This document shows positions 20,701 to 63,004 of a stretch of 64,000 nt of DNA, piece after piece. The notes under the pieces were generated by a model that saw only the letters and a list, made by a program, of their open reading frames with translations, was not told the DNA's origin and did not search any database. The DNA lies in assembly GCA_000310025.1 (NCBI GenBank), contig FN649735.1, positions 4,358,166-4,422,165 on the forward strand. The letters are read 5' to 3'. Within the stretch, counting starts at the first letter, position 1, and the number at the start of each line of letters is the position of its first letter. The position numbers and the translations under genes are program-made. This DNA comes from Ectocarpus siliculosus (taxonomy: Eukaryota; Sar; Phaeophyceae; Ectocarpales; Ectocarpaceae).

Positions 20701-23528
20701 TGCAAGGTACGGAGCGGAGACGCAAATTATTTTTATGTGAAGACAGCGACAGCAACAAGGGTGGATGACCTTTGCGTTCCGATCCTGCTGAGATTTCGCT
20801 GCATCCCGATGCTCCCTGAGCGGCTTCTCCCGTGTGTGCGCTCCCACCCGTTTCCTTGTGGGTCAAAGTATTTTCCTCCTCCTCCTCCTCCTCCTTCTCC
20901 TGCTTTGCGTGCTCCGGGTTGCACGGGCAATCTCATGTGGAGTAGCGGAAATGAAGGGGATAGAGGAGAGGGGAGACGGCCTTGCCTTGCCCTGCATTGC
21001 ATTGCATCCGTCTCGCAACCCTGACCCTCGCCCCTCAAATCGTTTCTGCCTTCATTTTCGTTGTTGCCGCAACTAGGAGGTGGACTTAGGGTGGGGTCGG
21101 TTTCCAGGGCGTATCCCTGTGGTGGCGGTGGCCTGCGGCCAGAGGCATACGCTCATCCTAACCGCCGTTGGCACCGTGCACTCATGCGGGTAAGGGCAAC
21201 GATGGGACGACACTGGCAGACCACCACAAGCAGAGCAACGCACAGAATATTCGGTAAAAAAACTCTCAGTGTGGATGAGCAGCCAGTTATGGGACGATGC
21301 TGGGAGGCACATTCTATAGGCGCTGTATGTGGCGTTATTAGGGTCTTGTCTTCCCTACATGAGCATGGGTGTTCCCGACCGCGTTGGGCGAGAACTCTGG
21401 GGGGCCTATGAGAAACATGTAACGATGTCGAGGTTGTCACCATCATGAGCGTTCCTCCGAGTACTGTAATCGCATGATACTTGGGGTTGTTCGTGCACAG
21501 GTAGTGCCGATTTGTGACCATTGCATCGCGATATACTCCGTCCGAGCTCTCGCAACAAGTTTTGTTTCCCGTTTTGCGGAATGCTCCGATCGAAAAACGG
21601 TTTATTTGACGGCCATCGTTCCCCCCGTCTCTACGGAGCAGGCTCGGCGACTACGGTCGCCTCGGGCATGGCAACGAGGCCAGCCTGTCCCGCCCCACCC
21701 TCATCGACTCCCTCGCAGGGGAGAGGATCACCCAGGTAGCCGCCGGTGCAGCCCACTCCGTGGCGGTTTCCTGGAGCGGGAAGGCTTTCACCTGGGGGTG
21801 GGGATACCAAGGCGTTCTCGGTCGGGGGGGCGACGACGACGTCTTGAAGCCGACCAGGGTGGCTATCCCTCTCATGGATGTTTCCGGCGGTTCAAACGGC
21901 GGTGGCGATGCGCGTGGCGGCGGTGTTGTTGCCGTCGAGGGCCATGTGACCTGCGCGACGGCCGGGCGATCGTGCACCGTACTCGGCACACGCCACGGTG
22001 TAGTCCTCTTCTCCGGGCTCATGTCGACCATGACAAGCAATCATTTTTGCGCGGTCTTCTCCGAGTTCGGCCGCTTGGGGGACGGGCTGCGGTGCTGGCG
22101 CGTTCAGTGCGAATGCTTGCCGGCCACGGGTACAACTCTGGTGATGGCGATCGATCCCGCCGGGCAAGTGTACGACGTGGAGCCCAGAAACGGGGTTGCT
22201 TTGGGTGGGAACAACAGCAGCAGGTACGGGAACCCGTCGAAACAAAGGGTACCGTTGTCGGCGGACTACGCCCCTTGCTCCTCAGTCATCCTTTCGCCCT
22301 CCGACAACGAACGTGGCCAGTGCTGGTTGGAGACCGGGGGCGAGGTCGAGGAGTCCGGGTGGGGGATGGACGTTTGTTTTGGCATGGTTGGAGTGTCAAG
22401 GGATGGGCGGCTGCTGTTTGACAGCGACGAGGACGATGCCGGCAAGGACAGAAGCGTCGGGGTGGTTCATGCGTCTGCCCGGATCGGTAACAGCTGTGAG
22501 GTCAGCCACGGGCTAAGGCTGGAGGACGGCGGCACGTCCGTGCTCACCTGGGGGGACGGCAGGACGGGACATGTGAGGGGTGGTGGGCGGTGAAAGTCGT
22601 CGATGATGGGAGATGCTAGACGATGTCTGGTGTTCTTTTGTGGGTAGCCTCCGTTAGATTGTCTGGAAAATGGCACCCTGTCTATGTAGGGTACAAAGAC
22701 GTCAGCACATCAGATAACACGAACCCGACCGTGTGTGTGTGTTTGATTTTCATTCGGAATTATGCGAACACATCATTCTCGAGTTGGAATGGACCGCGAA
22801 TCAATGGCCAAGACTTCACAATCGGCTTTGATTGAAGAAACAACAATGCCTCCTTCGCTTTGCCGTGGTCATACCCCCGATGTGTGCACCATTCGGAGAA
22901 AGCCGTCCTTCATTTTGGGGGGAGATATTCGCTACGCCCAATACTTTTTGGGAGAGACGAAAAGAATCGCTGCGCCACCCCTCCCGCCGCCGCCCCATCG
23001 ATTCATTCCACGGAGACCACAAGGCCCGCAGCATGCCCCTTGCTCTGACCTACGTGGCGATTACACGACCTAACCCTGTTAGCATACGTGCGCCATGGAG
23101 AGCGGATCGTCCTCTCTGATCGTGCAATAACCCTGACCCAAACCCTATCCCACTTCGACCCCCCGTACCCTCCCGCCGTTCCCTCGGACCACCCCCCCCC
23201 CCCTCGGCAGCTCGGTCACGGAACCCCCGCCTTCGAGCCGAAACCGAAGGGGGTCACCACGGCGGTGGTTCTGGGGAGCGCCGCAAGCGGGGTTCGCTCC
23301 GCAAGCGTGAATGTCTCCGTTGATGACTCGTTGGGGGGAAGCAGCAGGGAGGTTGGCGGCATGCATAGCAGCGGCGGTGGTGGTGGTGAAGCAGGGTTTA
23401 GGGGTGTTCTAGCACTCGTTGACGCTGCGGCGGATAGGCGGGATGCGGCAGACGATCGGGCCCTGGCCAAGGAGGAGGAGGAGGAGGAGGCGAAGAGGAG
23501 GAAGGTTAGCCACGCTGATGGAAGATGA
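17724..23528 (+). CDS. F-box and RCC1-repeat protein, 7 exons
   Basis: Probable substrate-recruiting F-box protein with an RCC1-like beta-propeller. Exons: 17724-17735 (tentative, MVRE), 18031-18122, 19101-19366, 20063-20154, 21077-21189, 21642-22572, 23211-23528. Phases join throughout, giving 607 aa. The F-box is LPLEVLQGCILVPFGTPRDV (~8-27) followed by AAS-R. RCC1-type blades are seen as ASLGETHSL, then VTPGGRALSAGSGRHGVLG (~125-143), VVAVACGQRHTLIL, GLGDYGRLGHG (~192-202), VAAGAAHSVAV with WGWGYQGVLGRG, and near the end WGDGRTGH-LGHG across the last junction. The central part of exon 6 is too divergent to assign to blades. The C-terminus has an acidic run followed by KRRK, a possible nuclear signal. 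F-box proteins bind SKP1/CUL1 ubiquitin ligases; that role here is inferred from family. The 12-bp first exon is the weakest part. Confidence 0.75.
18955..19092. repeat. Degenerate TGACATGA/TGAGATGG minisatellite
   Basis: A run of loosely repeated 5- and 10-bp units such as TGACATGACT and TGAGATGGCT immediately upstream of the splice acceptor at 19100 of the F-box/RCC1 gene. Confidence 0.8.
19370..19503 (+). repeat. Short interspersed element, family A
   Basis: Begins with the G-rich head right at the splice donor of the 19101-19366 exon. It continues CACTCATG, GTCGTTAGACCATTGGCCTC, GGACGGGGCGATATTCCTTC and GCCGGCCCAGGG, and its tail hairpin is degraded. The element therefore nearly touches a coding exon. 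Confidence 0.8.
19953..19979. repeat. (TGC)n microsatellite
   Basis: TGC trinucleotide run in the intron ahead of the exon at 20063 of the F-box/RCC1 gene. Confidence 0.9.
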
Positions 23529-26399: not shown

Positions 26400-29300
26400 T
26401 TAGCCGAGCACGAGACTGCTGTTGCCGCCGGGCCCCTGGCGGATGGGGGCGCTGTACGTGGATCCCTCGTTGCTCTGCCCGCCCACGCTCATGGTCTCCG
26501 CCATGTCGACGGCGTTGGCCGCGGGGGGCTCCGTGGAATCGACGCTCCCGAAAAGTGCCACTGACGTCACGTTCAGCCCCTGCAAACGACAAGGAGAGCG
26601 AGCACGACGGGTCTCAGACGGCACCGACACAATTAGGCGAACAATTCAATTTGGAGCAGGGGTTGTCCTGCCCTCCGCTGATCGCGTGGTGGCAGTCGAT
26701 GTTGACAGCTTGCCGGGCGTGGAGCCGCACAGCAGTACTACCGAGAGGTGGAGGCGCAGCAGCCGGTTAGGTTTGGTCACAGGCAGCTTTCTGCGCGGTA
26801 CAGAACAGCAAAAAAAAACTCGAACGCTGAGTCCCATCAATGGTTTGTTGAGAAAATAATATCCGCCTTACAGTCGTCCTCGCTGTAAGGACACTCATCT
26901 TGAGCCCACTCCCCGCTTTAAGGACAAAGAAAACTCAGAAGCAGCCCCCCCCACAGATATACAATTATAGAAGATGTCCTTAAAAGCGGGGTGGACTGTT
27001 CCATCATAAAAAAAATCTGTGTTCTCGCTCAGGGACAATACCATAGCATAGTCATCCTGTCATCCTCGCATCTCCGACCTGTGAGCGAAGGCTGTTGAGC
27101 ATAGCCTTCTTGTCTGAGTTGCCCATGCCCGCGGCCCCCTTCACCTCCTCGATCGTCTGGCTGCCGTCCGCCCTCGTGGCTAGCACTCTCCTGCCTGTCG
27201 TGCTGGCCATCGCACCGACCCCCCCCGGCAGATGCCAGGCGTTTCTGACAGAAACAACAGAAAGAAAGGGTTAGGCCACGTGGCTATCCAGATTTCAATA
27301 CTTGCACCCGAAGAAGGTGCAACATCAACGCGATCAGGTCCTCGATCATTTCCACACGGTGTCATGGGCAGTCACTCAAACAATAACACCTCGTCGTCTG
27401 GTGCAGCAGTATCACATCAACGAGAACCTTTTCTTGAGAAACACGTCGTAAGTTAATAGAAAATTCCACGCGGCAGACGCAGCAGTAAAGTCGCAAGCAC
27501 TAACCAGCCACAACGAGGAACAGTATGGCAACGATACCACGCATGTTGTATACGTACCTCATCATGAGCTCGAAGTCGTCGTCGTTGGGCATGCCCGCTG
27601 ACAGCATGGAGTAGTAACGACACCACTCCTCCGGTGTGACCTATACAAGATGTGCAAGTAGGTACACACAAAATGCACAAAGCGTGGAAAAATGCGATGC
27701 GCGGGGTCAGGATTTCAACGACAGTAGGCCCGAAAAGCACAATAAATATGCTTCGTATTGAACATTTATAACAACATGGACTTCGTAGAACAGAACTTGC
27801 GACTTCTGCACGAAAACTGCGTTGGATGCACGACAGTAAGACGGCCCCAACATCATCTAAGACCATTTCAAATAACCTAAATACCCCGATGTAGCTGACT
27901 TCGTTATCAGGGTGCCGACAAGAGTACGTCGGCCGATGACCTCCTGTACAACCTCAATTCAACTTACCCAAATCTCTGGCACAGTTGTACACGGCCGCAA
28001 ATGACGCCGGGCTTGGTGTCTGCCATGCAGCTCACGCACTCTTGCTACACATGAAGATGTCCACAAACGACAACAAATCTTTAAGACGAACAAACGAATG
28101 TCTGCATGCTAATAAAATAACAGCTGTTTCAAGCCCTCGAGAGGGGTACAGCAACACGCAGGGTTCGGGGGGTAACCCGCCCGCTACAATAGCGACAGAA
28201 CAGCAGGCCGAGGCTGTTCGGCCACCTCACCTTGCCATCCTTGATCTCCCCCTCGAAGCTGGAGATGAACTCCTCCATGACCTCCTCCTCTGTACGCCTC
28301 TTGGCCACCACACCCGGGTGCTGGGAAGCATCGTACACGCCCTGCCACACCACGTTCAATGACAAAAGACATTGAAAAACACATCCAACACAGTTCTGGC
28401 CCTTCAGTGCTCCACGCCATGTGCACCACTTATAAGCTAGAAAAAACGAAATGAAAGCCTACCTCACGAAGCAGCACTACGGCATACTCTCGACAGCTTG
28501 TTGAGTTCCCGAGAAGTGGTGATCTTGCTCGCAACGTGAAAATTACTCCCCCCCCTCCCATTTTTTGTTGCCATCACTCGAAATCAGTACTCACCGCATT
28601 TCTGCCCCCGTACAAACAAAAACGCCGCGTATATTCATTCTACCAGAGAACGAAATGCAACGCATCAAACATCTACAGTACCACGCTGTGGGTGTTACCG
28701 TTAACGGCCTTCCTTGCCAACGGAAAAGTACGGTGCCGACATGAAAGTTGTAGCCAACACAGCAGTCGGGTGACTGCTTTGATGGGGCAGTCAGGTGGAA
28801 TCGCTTAGCCTACCCTAGATCCATATAAAAAATATCACAGGTCAAATTCATATTTTGCACTTTGAATTGGGCGGGTGCCTGCTACCTTGTACAGGGAGGG
28901 TGGATCGCCCGGCACATAACTCAAAGCCACACTATTGACGGACCCCGGCCACCGTGGAGACAATAACAACAGAAATACATGCACCGACAGTGGTTTGTTT
29001 TTTTGGATCGTGAAGGAAAATTTAGCAACATGACGCCATGGTCGTGTTCCTCTCCCTCCCTCGAGCAGCCGCAAAACACAACAGCAAGTGAAAACCACGA
29101 CAGTGACAATCACGATGCCACGGCAACACACCTTGAGGTCGCTGGCGTTAAGAGCCCCGTTCTTGTCCTTGTCCATCACCTCGAACGCCTCCAGGATAAC
29201 CTGGGCCCGCCGTTCGTTCAACTCTCCTCGCACGGCGAACAGGAACTCGTCGTAGCTGACAAAGTTACGCACAAGTGCAAAAGAAAAGAAACACATGTAC

Positions 29301-32300
29301 AAGAGTCAGGCATACGGACAAGATGATACCAAACGATCGTGTTATCGTAAAGATATGCTTGGTAATAATCGCATCGAACAAGGCTAGGTAGGTTGGTTGG
29401 AGGGACTTCGAAGGGGGGTCCGCGGAACGGAATCCTACAGCCGTACGGTGGGGGGTCCGTGGAATGGAAGAGAGGAACATCGCAGGTTTCTTCGCAACCA
29501 CAATGACGCCTGGCGGTGGGGGTATCGTGGGGAGTCGAAGCGCTACAAACACCTTAAGGCGTTCGCTAGGTCGTGGCTTGGGCAGCGCGTTACAAAGAAA
29601 CACGATCGATCATATGCATGCGCCTACCTGACTCACACACACAATCTTAATCTTTCGGTCGTACAGCAGAAGCGACCACGAAACGTCACGGGAAGGGGGG
29701 GAAAATAACGCAACTCCGACAGCATACGGCAAGGGCGGTACTTTCCTATTATGAGTATAGTTTTCAGGCCCGCCTACAAAATGGGAAAAAGAAAGGCGGG
29801 TCGGTGTAAACCAAACTTGTCATTTATCTACCAGACAAGACTCGTACAATGTATGTGGCGGTGGCACGCACGCATGTGAACGGCAAAGCCTCAAAGCACC
29901 AAGGGATTCAACACAAGTGGTGCGGACTTTCCAATCCCAATCGATGTTGCCGCAGGGATCGGTGGCAGAAACCACGGGATTCAGTTAACTCGAGGCCCAT
30001 CTATCCCGCGCCTACTTCTCTCCCTTCAAAGGTGCCAGGTCCACTATCATCGGATTTGTGAACACACGGAGTTGAGGCACCGCAAGACGAGCCCGTCTAT
30101 CGCACGCTTTACTTGTAGGAGTACGTCTCTCACCAGCATGCTCCTGGGGTATGCTGTTTCTCATATCTCAATCAATCCCATCATCGCACGCCTATGTGTG
30201 TACTTCCAAGTCCAAGAATCTCAAAAGCTCTGCGGTATCTACAAATCTCATACAAATACAAAAGTATCTCACTCGATGGTGTCGGAGCCGTCGGTATCGA
30301 AGTGCTCGAACACGTTCTTCAGCTCGTCCTCTGTCCAGCCCATGTGAGCATCGCGCATGCACACCTGGAAAAACCAAAACACAGCAAACAATGGGCCAAT
30401 CGGTTCCAAGAGCCCGCGGTGGTCTACCGATCTGACACCAGGTTGTCCGGCTAACCTAGAACATGCGTGGGGTTGTTGGTCTACCGTAGCTGAGTAGATC
30501 ATTTGGCAAGCTCTAGCTCTAGTGGAAACGTTCTTCACACATACGCTACACCTCGTGGGGAGCTGCATGGCTCACCTACTTGACGGATCTCAACACACAG
30601 AATAAACATACATACAAAATGTACCTGGAACTCGTGGAAGCTGATGGTGCCCGACTTGTCGTCGTCCGAAAGCCGGAACCGCCTCGCGAGCCCAAACATC
30701 CCGCTGGACCGAATTAACGCATGTACAATAGATGTGCGGGCAAGAGCGATGTCATGAACGGACACGGGAGGGAGCAAGCGGACGTCACGTCAGCCCGAGC
30801 ACATGCCACGAGTCTTGGTAGATTTCAATAGCGACTATCGTTGTACAGTAGTATCGTTGGCGCACTGTAGATTAATTGGTTGGTCGAGACGCGAGGCAAG
30901 CATCATGTCTTGGTGAAGTGTGGTCCTGTCATGGAGTCATGGAGAGCACGGCCTACAGCACTGACTCACACTTTTCCGTGGCCCATGCAGCGCAGGTCAA
31001 GTCAGACGAAACGTACAACAGCCACGCGTCCACGGAGCGGGCCACATCTCGCCACCGCCGACAAACAACAACCAACATAAGTCACTGACTTTTCTTACTC
31101 ACGTTGCGCCGTGGGCCTTGAGGGAGGTCTTGAGGCCTAGCAGTAGTGAGGTGAGGTCCGTGGGCACCGCGCGTGTCTGCCCGAACACGCTCGACCTCCG
31201 CTTGGGGCCGAGGGAGAGACCGCGGCTGTTGGACGCGAACAGGTCGCCGCTGTTGCCTACCGCGGGAATGGCACGCGAGACTGCAGGTAGGGGGGGGGAG
31301 GGGGGGGGGCGACGGAGGGGCTAAGCGCTAGGGTGGTTACTTAGGCCGGTGGTTTCAGGATACAGAACGAGGGTTGGTGAGGCACGGGGGCGGTCACAAT
31401 TCGCCATTCCTGGTGGTGGTGGTGCTACTTTTACCACGACAAGTACAATCTTCTTCTGTCTGCGTAGTTTTGCAAGACTGAGATCGCACGGTAACGGTCA
31501 CATATATAGGCGCCTGCAAGTCGTTCTGCCCTCGACGTCAACGTAAGCTCTCGCAAACACAAAGCAACTAGGCTTGGAAGATGGGAGACAAATGCCGATA
31601 CAAAGCACAACGCAGTGGTAGCTGTTGCGTCCCACCCAGACGAGGGCTCCTCCTCTTCCCCTTGGTCTAACAGGGACTAGGAGCCCACCGTGCCTGGAAA
31701 TGTCAACGCTAACGCTTAGGTCGCGTCTCCTACCGCACCTGTGTAGGTCTCCTGCTTGCCGTCGCGGACGGAGGACATGTGGATCGCTCCCTTGGCCAGC
31801 TTCCCGCTGAGCGCGGCCGCATCACCCTCCGACACAGCACGGAAGCAGAGGCCGTTCACCACGGGCACCTTCAGGCTCAGGGACAGCTCCAGCAACGTCT
31901 TCACCAAAGCTCCGCCAACCTTCAGCATCAGCATCAGCATCAGCACGGGACAAGGGGCAAAGCTTCGGTCATGGTATGCCGTTGCGTGTTTCTGTGGTGG
32001 AACTAACTGCCCACGAAGGCAGCCAAAATGTTGTGTCGTTCTGTCCATCAGCAGCAGTGGTACAGTGGAACACCTCTCTTTGCTCGGGCCAAAACCGATA
32101 AAAGCCTGCTTCGCTAGACGAGTCCACCGACCGGTAAGCATTCCCTCGAGATAGTCGGGTTTCCCCTTACTCCGAGTATAAAACATCCGGTGCAAAATTT
32201 ATGCTACGGTCTCTTGTCGGTGAATCCTTAGGGATAGGGTTAGGGTAGGTCGGGTTTCCCGAATTGAACATCCGGTGCAAAATGTATGCTACGGTCTCTT

Positions 32301-33190
32301 GTCGCTGAATCCTTAGGGCTAGGGTAGGTCGGGTTTCCCCGTATTGAACATCCGGCGCAATTTTTTTGGTACGGTCTCATGTCGCTGAATCAATCCTACC
32401 TCTTTCGAACACCAGTGGGCATCTGCAACCAGGAAACCGATGGCCACTACCACCGACACCCCGGTCTTCTGTACCATGCACTGGATGGCGAACGGGAGCT
32501 GGAGTGGGTCGGAAACCTCGTATATCGTGGTCTTGGCGCCTGTGGACAAGCGTCGAGGAGACGTGTTGGTTGACACGGCAGATGTAGGGAGGTTGCAGCG
32601 CGGCAGCACGCAACGAAAGGGTTTGGTACACCAGTAGCTGTGAGTCAAAACACTGCACTATATAAACACTGTACTACATAAGCACGGTTGCTGAGTCGAA
32701 TACGGTATACCAAACCGAGCGGGCTTTACAGCAGAGCGCATGTGGCGGTACGAGCCCTGCCTGGGCACGTAGGCACGAACACGCCCGGTCGACAACCACA
32801 CGAAATAACAACATACAGGCGGGACGACAACGAAACCGAAGCCAGCTCCCATTGGTTCTCACCGAGCTGCTGGAGTGCCGCCACAGTAGACGACTTGAGA
32901 GCCTCCGACTCGCACACCGCCACCCCGACGTGGAGCCCCGCAGCGGAAACGGCCAGTTCCGCCGGGGGGGAGGCCGTCGGCGTCGCCGACTTGGCACGGG
33001 TGGGTGTGGGTGCCCTCGGGGGCGACGCCATTTGCGCCTTCGCCTTGCTGGCGGCGCCGTTGGCGGCGGCCGGGGTTTCGGTGGCGTAGTCCCCTAGGGA
33101 GATGGACGTCTGCCCCCCCGGCGGCGCGTACCTGAGGGAGAGGGGGTTAAGCGTAGCAGCCGCGGTGGTTGGGGAAGAAGGGACTTTCAT
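26400..33190 (-). CDS. Lumazine-synthase-like / calcyphosin-like EF-hand fusion protein, 11 exons
   Basis: Exons (minus, 5' to 3'): 32863-33190, 32400-32539, 31739-31919, 31103-31280, 30625-30703, 30273-30364, 29132-29255, 28231-28341, 27558-27640, 27079-27244, 26400-26579; all GT/AG, in phase, 553 aa. Residues 20-33 carry RYAPPGGQTSISLG. Residues ~85-205 align with 6,7-dimethyl-8-ribityllumazine synthase: GLHVGVAVCE, then SDPLQLPFAIQ at the PGAxEIP position, VVVAIGFLVADAHWCSKEV at the GAVxRGxTxHxD position, and KVPVVNGL at the PVxxGVLT position. The Arg/Thr of the catalytic motif and the terminal RAGxKxGNKG are absent, so activity is doubtful. Residues ~277-490 are calcyphosin-like. EF1 is DDDKSGTISFHE, EF2 DTDGSDTIDYDE, EF3 DKDKNGALNASD; the fourth is degenerate, followed by VTPEEWCRYYSMLSAG and NAWHLPGG with RADGSQTIEEVK. 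Known calcyphosins are about 190-210 aa. Likely a calcium-responsive, non-catalytic protein; function unknown. Confidence 0.85.
26905..26995. repeat. Inverted repeat in intron of the EF-hand fusion gene
   Basis: Left arm CCACTCCCCGCTTTAAGGAC (about 26906-26925) is matched in inverted orientation by TGTCCTTAAAAGCGGGGTGG (about 26975-26994), allowing one insertion and one deletion. The loop is about 50 bp. It could be a small foldback element. Confidence 0.75.
32154..32392. repeat. Three-copy tandem repeat with telomere-like junctions
   Basis: Three consecutive copies, each opening with GTCGGGTTTCCC, then AACATCCGGYGCAA and ACGGTCTCWTGTCG. They begin near 32154, 32249 and 32328 and are joined by CCTTAGGGATAGGGTTAGGG-type sequence. 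The array sits just outside the exon that encodes the middle of the lumazine-synthase-like domain. Confidence 0.85.
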
Positions 33191-35625
33191 GTTACCGTAA
33201 AGGTGGCATGACGTAAGATATCGTACCCCCTGCACCGATTTTCGAAGCTCGACTACTTCTCAGCACCGAGAGTGGCGGTGCAGAAAAATGGCCGCGTTGG
33301 AACCGTCTACTCGATAGAGAGAGCTTTCGTGTTGGACGTATGATACGTATCGTTTGATTTGTACCTCCTGTTCGTCGTGGAGTATCCGAGCTTTGAAAAT
33401 CGGTCCGGGGTGTGTGGTATTTCCAGTCCCCTTACAGTATGAATGCTGCGCGGAGGCGAGCGGACCACAGCAACTCAGAACGACGGTGTTTTTGAACTAT
33501 GATGGGGTTGTACATACGCGGTATAGAAGTACGGCGGTTGGAACCGGCACCTGGTGTGCCAACAGCTCCTCCAGGAGGAACTATACTTGGCTCTTTCTAC
33601 ATGAGCGCAATGCGGACGTACTGTAGCGTGGTCTTAGGCTTGCCAAAGATGACAATGCTTCATGACGACCACCTTTCACGAGGAGATGAGGGTGGAAGGA
33701 ACCGTCTTGAACACCCCGGGCCAGATTCCTCCAACACCGCGGTACAAGATAGGTGGCACTGCTCCTCCTTCCCACTTGTACAGCCAAACCTTAACCTTGG
33801 GAAATGCTGGCATGTTAACTTTTTCTCACCTGCGCGTGGATGACTTCTCCCACACCAGATCTCCAGAAAGTTGCGTAGACATGGCGGCTGGCTGGTTCGC
33901 TGTTGGTGTTTCGCACTGCGTTCCGTGTGAATGGGAGGGGGGGAGGTTTGGCTACACAGCACTACAGCAGTAGTAGTCTATTGCATGTGCATTGTGTGCA
34001 GCAAGTAGTTACAGAGAAGCTGACAAAATGTACCATTATCAAACAACGCCGTTGTTAGATACATATGCTTAACCCCCGCCTGTGGCATCAACACGTCTGT
34101 GTGCGCCGCCGCCGCCGCCGCCCCAGCAGCAGCTACGACTGCTGTAGATACCGTCGTAGCTTGGAGGAAGGCGGATGTGTGTACGCGCGGGATGATGACA
34201 GCAGTGAAAATCCAACTTTGGGGACGACATCGTTGGATTGTGACGATTTAACGATTTTATGCATACAACGAAAACAAATCTCACGAGAGCTCCCTTAGTG
34301 CGTACCCCAACGTTTACGGCCCGACAAGCCCAGAGATCTCTGCCGTCATGAGAAAATCAGTGCTCGCACACACCACTACATCATCTGGGCGCATGAACAT
34401 TCAAATCTTGGGGTTTGCGTCATGAATCATCGTTGAAAAAGAGAGCCAAACGAACGACTCGCATTTCATTCTCTACTGCTGTTGCCGTGGAGCAACAACC
34501 GGTCAAAGATTGCCAACGAGCGTTTGTGCTTCAGCTGCCTTACCGCCCCCCCCACTGGATGCTTGGGGGCGGCGACACAGCGGCGCGCGCGCGTGATCTA
34601 CTGCTGGGTGGGACACAAACTAATAACGACGAACTACACAGCGACCCCTCGTGCAAACTTGGTGGGAGGCGGCACACTTTTTGAAGAACGGGTTGTTTCA
34701 ACGCCCCCCAAGAATCAAAACCGAGATGACGTGAGGAGCTGTAGCTCTCGGTGCATCCCGGGGTTGCAGAGTCACAGCGTACCGCCAACCTTGCTGTGCG
34801 GTTGTCCTTCGAAGCCATCGGCAGAACAACGAAATGGCCGTCGCTGGATCAGACCAACGGATTTTCGTGGAATGTTAAACACAACAACACAGCAGTCAGT
34901 CAGCAGCCCCCTCCCTCTCTCCACCTCCTTCGTTGCCTCACCTGTTGCAATACGCACTGCCTTTGCAACGACAAGCTTCGACCGTTGGGCGCAGGGGGGG
35001 TGGTTAATCCGGTTCTTGGCTCCAACAGCAGTTGTAGTTGGTTGCTCTCGTCATGTCCAACCTCTACCCCCCCCCCCGCCTATATTACATTTCCACATTT
35101 TAATCGACATATGTATATTTTTCGGTGTACTATTTGCGGTGCCCCTCAGGCACCGCAGATCGCTGCAGCGCGGTACGGAGAACGCAAGAGAGAGCTGTGT
35201 TGCCAAAGGGCGATCTGCGAGGTACCGTCCCTTCTTAGAGGTTGCGTTGGTAGTCTTTTGTCTTGGCCTTCCCTTTTTGAAAACACACTTTGGATAATTG
35301 GCGGGCAGGCAGTCTCTGTTTTCTCCTTCATCAAGAGGCAGCCAAGGAGGCAGGGAGATGCGAAAACGGAGGGAGGTTCGGACACAAGGCGGCCGCTCGC
35401 TCGCGTTTGGACGCAAGCGCGTGGAGTGAAGTGGAAGCGATGTGCTTTTTAACTTTGTTCGATGATTCTTGGCTTATCGCTGACGCTTCGTTTCCCTCGC
35501 GCGCTCTCCCTCTCTGCTCTCTTTCGTCTTCCTTCCACACAGGAGCACTTTTCATCGAAAACAACGGATCCAGTCCACACACAAGATAAGAAAGAGGGGG
35601 ATTCCTCCCAACAAGCGAACGAATC
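33191..35625. other. Divergent intergenic region between EF-hand fusion and RRM genes
   Basis: Should hold the promoters of both flanking genes. A 271-codon plus-strand frame at 34482-35297 shows no domain and is not called. The segment 33231-33445 partly resembles intron sequence near 16065-16165 (shared GAGCTTTGARAATSGG and GGGTGTGTGGTATYYC phrases), so it probably contains a diverged repeat. A CT-rich stretch lies just before the RRM gene start. Confidence 0.45.
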
Positions 35626-60600: not shown

Positions 60601-63004
60601 AGCTCACCCTTCATGCGACTCGCCGAATACCTCACGGCGCTTCGCGCTTGGTGATGTGAGAGCCTGGTCCGGTGAGAACCCGGCGTGCTCCGTCCCGTCT
60701 TTGTAGGGATGCGAGGTCACTGGTCTAACGACTACGGCATGCACGACTATGAGTCCCCCCCCCCCCCCCCCCCCCCCANNNNNNNNNNNNNNNNNNNNNN
60801 NNNNNNNNNNNNNNNNNNNNNNNNNNNNNNNNNNNNNNNNNNNNNNNNNNNNNNNNNNNNNNNNNNNNNNNNNNNNNNCCCGTCTCTTCCCCTTTTGCTA
60901 CGGGGTGGGGTGGCCCGGCCCAAAAGCCGGCGTGTGCCGAACGCAATCCCCCCCCCCCCCCCCCCCCCCCCCCCCGTTTCCTCTCTTGCTCTGTCAAATA
61001 CGTCGTTTTAGTCGGTGACGTGTGGCACCGGAATGCTTTTCTGACAGTCACAGTGCCGAGGTGCGCGAGAGGTGTAGCGCAGACGGGTTGAAACACACAC
61101 AACACACAAACCAGCTCATTGCCTCGAAAGCCACTTCACCATTTTCGTCCGGCCGGAAGCAGAAGGCCGATGTATTTCCGTTGGCCAGTTGGTTCGCGCG
61201 GTCGATGCAAAAAAAAAAAACATAACACTCCTTGAGATTGTGCGACGGCAAGGCAGGAGTCGGCGTCTGCCTCTCTGCCCCGCGACAGAAAAAACACAGC
61301 GAAATATCTCTCGCTCGACTAGAAAGGCGACAGCATGTTGCACGAACCGCTCTCGTGAAGGTATGGGCGATCTGCCATACGTACGCGGGACAGGTCGTCA
61401 TGCGGATCGCATCGCTCGAAACAGCACACCATGCATCAAGTATGCACCACAGGGCGGCGCATCGACACATGCTCAGGCAGCAACCTACTATAATAGACCG
61501 CACCTTTGTCCTGAGCTGGATGCTGTACTGGCTGAAGGTCGCCTCCGCTCTCTCCACGTTGCGGTTGTTGAAGTGTTCCAGCTCGCTCGCAGACGCCACC
61601 CAGTCCAACGACCTCCGGGCCAGGGCAAGGCTGACCTCACTCACCACCTCGGCGAGCCCGCTCCGGGACTCGGTATCTCCCCGAGAAGAGACGTCCTCCA
61701 GAACGCCTTCGTCGGGGGGGGGGGGGCGTCAGTGAAACGAAGGGTGCGGCGGGGTGAAGGCTTGGAAAGGTGGGTGGGGGTACGTATGTATCGTCGAAAT
61801 AAAAACGGTACGCGATGACATCTGACATCTGATCCAAGCTGCTCGTACAGTCTCTAACCTTATGGTATGCGGGAAGCGACACGGGTGCTACTGGATCTCC
61901 GCCTTCAAGTAGCAGTGACATACGACAAGAAGATGACTGGCTTGTTGGCTCCGTGCTTTGTTTCGCGTTTCGAAAATATGTACAGATAAGATTTTGTCAC
62001 TCTTCTTTCTGCCGGAGGATACAGTCGAGAAGCAGGGAATAGACGCGCGTGTAACCGACACATGACACGCCTGAACGCTAGCCTGACAGATTGTGGTGTA
62101 CCCTACACTGTCAACCCCCGGAACCCGGCGGTGGCCACGCCATTGGCACACCATGGCGCCGGTGCAGAGCTTGCACTCGAGACCGCCGTGCCTCATCTAA
62201 GGCTGCGACGAAGTCGACGCGTGGATCTGTATCGAAACTTGGGCCGAACAAAAAAAACAAGCAACATTAGTGTACACAATACCCGCAGGGCCAACGCTCT
62301 CCACGTACTGACCTAGGATGGAGTTTGAGCTTCTGTCGCGGCAGTTAATCGCCACCTGAAGCTTCAGCACGTCCACACCCTCTCCGAGACTGGACGGGGG
62401 CGAGTCATCCAGGTTTCCGAAGCTCGTTCCTCCTCCCTGACGTCGCGGCCACCATCCCGGCGAGGCAAGGTTACATTATTAGTTTGCGCTTGCTGAAGTG
62501 CGACCGTCGACCAAAATGGTCGTGCGTGTGTGTATTCTGTAAGTACGCGGCTTTTGGCCAAGAGGCGAGGTACGAGACAAAGGGCATGACTTCCTCAAGA
62601 CCAGCGCGAAACGGCAGCAGTTTGACCCCTGGGTTATTCCGCCTCGACCATGACATGATGCAGATGCAGTGTCTGTGATGCCAAGACGAAGCTTTGACCA
62701 GGGGATCAACAAGTGTGTCCATGGCATGGGGTTACATGTCCAAAACTGTGGTGCATGTGCTGTAGGTCCTGTAGTTCAGCCTGTTGTCTGGAGTCAAGTG
62801 CCGAACGCGGCGAGGGAGTACGAAGAGGTCTATCGGAGTCGGTGGTCCCGCCAATCAACGAGCTCGTGGTCAAGCGAGTTTTGCTACCATGCGATATCTC
62901 GCGCGTCGTAGCAAAACACACGTGCCGAGGCCGCTGCTGCAAGCGGAATGTTGCCACCAACTACGATGTACGTTGTCAACCAACCTGAAGATCGTCGTCG
63001 ACAT
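57674..63004 (-). CDS. DUF1517-like protein, 5 exons
   Basis: Exons (minus, 5' to 3'): 62888-63004 (tentative), 62313-62436, 61504-61706, 58544-58718, 57674-57831; joined in phase, 258 aa. The match is to the DUF1517 family of cyanobacteria and plastids, function unknown. It has a Gly-rich GGGTSFGN near the start, LKLQVAIN, SGLAEVVSEVSLALARRSLD with W, RAEATFSQYSIQLRTK-IERE, VAVVSLVVALRG after a Gly-rich loop, LKTALQTIASG, and the conserved C-terminal pattern LAAEVLWTPEEPWEVLTRED with a DFPELMDL end. Family members usually have an N-terminal transit region and a membrane segment. The proposed first exon is basic with no clear signal or membrane helix, so the true 5' end may lie elsewhere or beyond the window. 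Introns are 477, 606, 2797 and 712 bp; the largest holds a nested tandem array and an assembly gap. Confidence 0.72.
59520..59560. repeat. (CAG)n microsatellite
   Basis: CAG run in the large intron of the DUF1517-like gene. Confidence 0.9.
59908..60425. repeat. Nested tandem array with foldback units
   Basis: Two levels of repetition. A ~65-bp unit (GTTTGTCATCGGGGTTGGG, TTTTCGTCGCTTGGCAACGA, CGTTGTAAAACAAGCC, C run) occurs four times, near 59908, 60104, 60171 and 60238. An outer ~120-bp block (GAGCTCGGCAACCAGGTTACC, T runs, GGTAACCATAATGRTGG, GTCGAGAACCCTCAYTCCGC) occurs near 59977 and 60307. The unit contains the foldback GTTTTCGTCG...ACGACGTTGTAAAAC, and the outer block contains GGTTACC/GGTAACC arms around the T run. 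Confidence 0.9.
60660..60778 (-). repeat. Short interspersed element, family A (reverse), at gap edge
   Basis: Reverse copy: GAGAACCCGGCGTGCTCCGT, TTTGTAGGGATGCGAGGTCA, GGTCTAACGACTACGGCATG, CGACTATGAGT and then a C run of about 24 that runs into the N gap. The C run (poly-G head of the element) probably stopped the assembly. Confidence 0.85.
60779..60878. other. Assembly gap (100 N)
   Basis: Exactly 100 unknown bases, directly after the C run of a reverse family A element. The sequence that follows (60879-60975) again has element-like pieces (GGCCCGGCCCAAAAGCCGGCG) and another long C run. Confidence 0.99.

Follow-up and report, generated by a model that had tools for sequence, protein, structure and literature searches.

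A predicted Ectocarpus siliculosus gene that likely joins a lumazine-synthase-like domain to a calcyphosin-type EF-hand unit

Introduction

Lumazine synthase (6,7-dimethyl-8-ribityllumazine synthase; Pfam family PF00885, RibH/RibE) is a stand-alone metabolic enzyme that is able to form cages, and its fold binds lumazines and riboflavin. Calcyphosins are often found in flagella, yet they are not necessarily ciliary proteins. The solved chains of calcyphosin (3e3r) and of a calcyphosin-like protein (11yj) comprise 204 and 208 amino acids, and similar units are present in RIB22, RIB57 and RIB35 (8g2z), which we take to be ciliate doublet proteins. For trypanosomatids, kinetoplastids or Discoba, 27 DMIPs are reported in the excerpted parts of one study (PMC7617938), which name DMIP21 as one of the 27 inner proteins of trypanosomatid doublet microtubules and assign EF-hands to 8 of the 27. 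The combination of EF-hands with another fold is a known theme in cilia, exemplified by the DM10 domain in CAPS2 (excerpts of PMC10973386) and by DMIP23, an EF-hand protein with a beta-trefoil (excerpts of PMC7617938).

The locus described here appears to combine a domain related to lumazine synthase with a complete calcyphosin unit. The analysed stretch of DNA, termed the window, comprises 64,000 nucleotides of the E. siliculosus genome (contig FN649735.1, positions 4,358,166 to 4,422,165), and all coordinates refer to it unless another contig is named.

Results and discussion

Gene model

A 12-exon gene was modelled on the minus strand between positions 33882 and 26400 (Table 1). Its 1656 bases encode 551 amino acids followed by a stop codon, all 11 introns possess GT donors and AG acceptors, and the phases match at every junction. 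One continuous gene with matching split codons had been proposed in the initial annotation, and this in-phase continuity was upheld; the exon count of 11 was not, and the stretch 32400-33131, formerly taken as a single segment, consists of two exons separated by an intron (32862-32540). The alternative 11-exon version, which starts with the ATG at 33190, is in phase as well and has the length that had been claimed for it (553 amino acids, two residues longer), although its first exon is probably wrong. The one weak spot of the model is the acceptor of exon 4 (CTGATGCTGAAG), which lacks a pyrimidine tract. Intron 3 contains a tandem array (32182-32391) of 2.6 copies of an 80-85 base unit. Elsewhere in the window, one ORF encodes RCC1 repeats (21610-22593; PF00415, E 2.3e-20) and another one matches DUF1517 (61048-61728; PF07466, E 4.5e-13).

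Table 1. Exons of the modelled gene and the neighbouring repeat, in window coordinates
Feature	Position	Strand	Residues and content	Remark
Exon 1	33830..33882	minus	aa 1-18; start codon and first part of N-terminal PPGG motif (probable)	donor GTGAGA, phase fits exon 2
Dispersed repeat	33193..33423	minus	outside the protein	inside intron 1, ends beside ATG 33190
Exon 2	32863..33131	minus	aa 18-108; PPGG motif, low-complexity linker, start of lumazine-synthase-like domain	
Exon 3	32400..32539	minus	aa 108-154; core of lumazine-synthase-like domain with VSDPLQLP	
Exon 4	31739..31919	minus	aa 155-215; remainder of lumazine-synthase-like domain	raises PF00885 score when joined
Exon 5	31103..31280	minus	aa 215-274; linker and first calcyphosin helix	no in-frame ATG
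Exon 6	30625..30703	minus	aa 274-300; EF-hand 1	loop DDDKSGTISFHE at aa 287-298
Exon 7	30273..30364	minus	aa 301-331; most of EF-hand 2	loop aa 323-334 extends into exon 8
Exon 8	29132..29255	minus	aa 331-372; end of EF-hand 2 and EF-hand 3	loop DKDKNGALNASD at aa 359-370
Exon 9	28231..28341	minus	aa 373-409; calcyphosin-type helices, start of degenerate EF-hand 4	
Exon 10	27558..27640	minus	aa 410-437; remainder of degenerate EF-hand 4 and calcyphosin C-terminal helix	
Exon 11	27079..27244	minus	aa 437-492; NAWHLPGG and RRVLATRADGSQTIEEVK	tail common to DMIP21
Exon 12	26400..26579	minus	aa 493-551 and stop; end of tail	C-terminal GPGGNSSLVLG

The first exon was revised because the ATG at 33190, used as the start in the initial annotation, adjoins a dispersed repeat and because the alternative N-terminus aligns better; on this modest evidence, the start at 33190 is probably wrong and exon 1 is probably the upstream one. 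At least 51 genome match rows, including the window's own, were obtained for the repeat when 40 of the 1050 first-look candidates were scored. At several places in the genome the ends of this repeat also match in opposite orientation, resembling an inverted-end element. Translated from exons 1 and 2, the N-terminus aligns over 32 amino acids without gaps to an ORF on contig C2 (genome E 0.0078), with a score of 78 versus 64 for the start at 33190. Most of both scores is due to exon 2, which is common to both versions; each exceeded all 1000 shuffles, and this control alone cannot pick the start. Exon 1 by itself aligned weakly with the same ORF (45 of 2000 shuffles as good or better), as did the C-terminal motif (14 of 1000 shuffles as good).

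The C2 ORF (L006, about 1037-1894) contains two copies of the motif NQN(A/S)GNF.T..P.TR..APPGGASSI.FG, which is like the N-terminus described here and presumably recalls HN1/SPIRAL1 microtubule proteins. A likeness to HN1/Jupiter and SPIRAL1 is likewise assumed for the elements PPGG..S.S.G near the N-terminus and PGG.SSLVLG at the C-terminus of the predicted protein and is treated as a lead; N-terminal, C-terminal, joined and linker pieces did not match the HN1/Jupiter Pfam family at E up to 10. A third PPGG-like motif considered in the linker was rejected, as 745 of 1000 shuffles scored equally well.

A lumazine-synthase-like domain with an altered active site

Residues 94-192 match PF00885 with 35.7 bits in the context of the whole protein (cut-off 26.7), and the domain alone reaches 39.4 bits (E 6.9e-10), so that the profile check proposed in the initial annotation for residues 85-205 did return a lumazine synthase superfamily match. 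A reversed copy of the domain had no Pfam match. With a small home-made lumazine synthase profile, the domain obtained 21.3 bits and the best control 13.9 bits (2000 shuffles and one reversed copy, 1808 of these 2001 being reported). The match exceeds chance. The join of exons 3 and 4 is supported because addition of exon 4 lifts the PF00885 score by 15.7 bits from the 23.7 bits of the part before the junction, while exon 4 alone gave no match. An alternative in-frame acceptor for exon 4, which adds 24 residues, was set aside with 28.7 bits, a score still above the cut-off.

An alignment of six lumazine synthases (four copied from PDB alignments and two found among 80 fetched loci; the program used five) allowed the positions of the domain to be compared with those of the enzyme, and the profile comparison with it gave a probability of 88.8. 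Positions 7-117 of lumazine synthase align with the domain, interrupted by one deletion of five residues and one of three. Across the six enzymes 49 columns are invariant and 31 of them lie within the aligned stretch, where seven are kept (L30, G42, V53, P60, G79, P110 and G114) and 24 are changed or deleted, which bears out the earlier claim that catalytic motif residues were lost. In the numbering of the 1rvv chain, F22 is deleted and E58, H88 and F113 are replaced by Q, C and N, respectively; these four residues, together with R127 and K135, are taken by us to have active-site roles. The other 18 invariant columns, R127 and K135 among them, are located beyond position 117, where the alignment is unreliable. 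Exon 3 encodes VSDPLQLP where the compared enzymes have VPG(A/S)(F/Y/W)E(I/L)P, the RFN segment is changed and partly deleted, and the C-terminal part of the enzyme cannot be aligned. The NCBI equivalog cut-off was missed by far (TIGR00114, 23.9 bits versus 84.6 needed), as was that of PRK12419 (18.9 versus 160 bits), and the protein's top NCBIfam match, an EF-hand family, likewise stays under its threshold. With core fold positions kept and the active site apparently lost, the domain seems best named a lumazine-synthase-like pseudoenzyme, which further differs from the enzyme in being fused to other parts.

The calcyphosin unit and its tail

Residues 255-442 form a full calcyphosin unit, of which 188 query residues align to the calcyphosin-like chain 11yj (E 8e-38), and the likeness to this chain and to calcyphosin itself spans the unit as a whole, first helix and AW.L end included. 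Together with the PF00885 match above the cut-off, this result sustains the fusion proposed in the initial annotation. Unlike the solved calcyphosins, the unit is preceded by the lumazine-synthase-like domain and followed by a tail. Further matches of the calcyphosin half in the PDB include RIB22 (E 4.7e-36), RIB57 (7.2e-34), calcyphosin 3e3r (4e-32), DMIP20 (4.1e-21) and DMIP21 (4.1e-18); the RIB proteins were matched over their calcyphosin units only. At a threshold of E 0.001 the PDB yields 293 distinct sequences, and calmodulins make up most of the best 60 among them. The loops of EF-hands 1-3 contain the usual ligands, with D at positions 1 and 3, S or N at position 5 and E or D at position 12. 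In loop 2, position 6 is occupied by D rather than G, and loop 4 is degenerate and without the usual ligands.

The tail was searched as a query of 116 residues that included the last residues of the calcyphosin unit, and two PDB sequences were found at E up to 10. These matches are modest (9e2g_0T, E 0.00012; DMIP21, E 0.0011) and indicate a sequence kinship beyond the EF-hands, with the pattern WHL.GG....T..RR......G....E..K being common to DMIP21. Among the trypanosomatid proteins (9e78; excerpts of PMC7617938), DMIP20 and DMIP21 have similar calcyphosin units and DMIP21 additionally has the tail; the matches cover these parts.

A possible role in the flagellar axoneme

Calcyphosin unit and tail point to the flagellar axoneme, a suggestion that adds to the initial annotation. 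The best explanation, held with moderate confidence from sequence comparison, is that the gene encodes a calcium-binding protein of the axoneme in which an inactive lumazine synthase fold has a structural or docking function. As with other inner proteins of calcyphosin type, the protein would most likely be located on or inside the doublet microtubules, where the lumazine-synthase-like domain could provide a rigid element beside the calcyphosin unit, and calcium bound to EF-hands 1-3 may make the protein more stable or modulate its contacts. The ciliary families PACRG and DM10 were matched in the genome and neither was matched in 14 control genomes, as expected for an organism with motile flagella. 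Against the axonemal reading, EF-hand matches are widespread and those of the tail are modest. The kinship to DMIP21 does not provide a doublet position here, since EF-hand proteins probably joined the doublets independently in different lineages and the sites differ in algae (excerpts of PMC7617938). According to the same excerpts, cells lacking DMIP20 swam slightly faster, so such proteins can be dispensable.

Instead of a structural role, the domain could be a non-catalytic binder of flavin, lumazine or pterin that acts as a pigment or sensor module of the flagellum while the EF-hands read calcium. We regard this as unlikely: known lumazine synthase folds do hold lumazines and riboflavin, and the calcyphosin half and the tail are similar to flagellar proteins, but the positions that presumably hold the ligand in real lumazine synthases are changed or deleted here. 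Flavin-like and pterin-like pigments, tied to phototaxis, are described for the posterior cilia of heterokont algae, yet other carriers have been proposed for them, namely a relative of Old Yellow Enzyme (both in excerpts of PMC2781859) and helmchrome (excerpts of PMC5795050).

Assignment of the fold

It is quite unlikely that the match to PF00885 reflects another alpha/beta fold resembling that of lumazine synthase. Such a resemblance would be compatible with the low identity (22% over 103 columns in the profile comparison with the lumazine synthase alignment), with the weakness of the single-sequence PDB matches (best E 0.0081), with the 7 of 31 alignable invariant positions kept and with the unalignable region past position 117. 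However, a PDB search with the domain yielded 19 sequences up to E 10, every one of them a lumazine synthase, Pfam gave no family besides PF00885 for it up to E 1, and the stretch from VSDPLQLP to NGLC is gap-free in both alignments (home-made profile and profile comparison). Read by eye, the H88 loop had seemed to lack a few residues, a reading that was abandoned in view of these gap-free alignments.

One gene or two

That two adjacent genes, one lumazine-synthase-like and one of calcyphosin type, were falsely joined is very unlikely. The junction of exons 4 and 5 (31739/31280) is predicted from sequence, read-through beyond exon 4 meets a stop within a few codons, and a start could be supplied by a small coding exon that escaped notice in intron 4 or by an ATG present in exon 6. 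Nevertheless, the phases fit at this junction and the calcyphosin homology begins at residue 255, within exon 5, where the reading frame is devoid of ATG codons as far upstream as the nearest stop. To be a separate gene, the calcyphosin part would have to begin either in a further upstream exon that escaped notice or in exon 6, and the latter start would cost it the first helix. Because the homology starts in this ATG-less frame and the junction phases fit, a single gene spanning both halves is likely.

Related sequences in the genome

Genome searches were performed exon by exon with only the best candidates scored, and absence is not proved thereby. On this basis no paralogue of the lumazine-synthase-like domain was seen, all three matches at E up to 10 being this gene, and the single match of the tail is again this gene. 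A genome search with PF00885 yielded no match at E 0.001 and a single place when E was relaxed to 10, and it missed the exons of this gene too. Another exon, containing VPGAFELP, is present at C20:1408864-1408953 and was scored with 19 bits (PF00885, E 0.133), below the family cut-off. Read by eye, this exon belongs to a usual lumazine synthase, and the enzyme may therefore come from another gene; the remainder of that gene cannot be read because of N bases (L005, 7428 of 7501; L004, 1464 of 3090). Two EF-hand stretches at C27:465824-468196 are 38-39% identical to the calcyphosin half and perhaps mark a second calcyphosin gene. A scan of viral contigs with the whole protein gave three pattern matches and no relatives.

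An inactive domain that carries a flavin or pterin chromophore in the flagellum of a phototactic alga, with the EF-hands coupling light or redox state to calcium and beat, would be a speculative picture with a very slim chance of being correct. A working lumazine synthase under calcium control is extremely unlikely, for although the PF00885 score exceeds the curated cut-off, TIGR00114 stays at 23.9 of 84.6 bits, 24 of 31 alignable invariant positions are changed, and an exon of lumazine synthase type exists elsewhere in the genome.

Novelty and implications

We know of no described protein that combines a lumazine-synthase-like domain with a calcyphosin unit. No paper on such a combination with calcyphosin or EF-hands was found in the literature by queries whose broader forms were covered in part, and neither lumazine nor EF-hand occurs in the main text, as far as excerpted, of a paper on domain fusions in oomycetes (PMC2705460). 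The comparison with eukaryotic genomes comprised the window's own, and public databases may already contain the architecture without its having been noticed.

If the preferred reading is true, an inactive copy of lumazine synthase placed on a calcyphosin with ciliary kin would mean that this enzyme fold was recruited to another task, probably a flagellar one. The protein would then be a candidate to examine in algae with flavin-like and pterin-like flagellar pigments whose carrier is uncertain (excerpts of PMC2781859).
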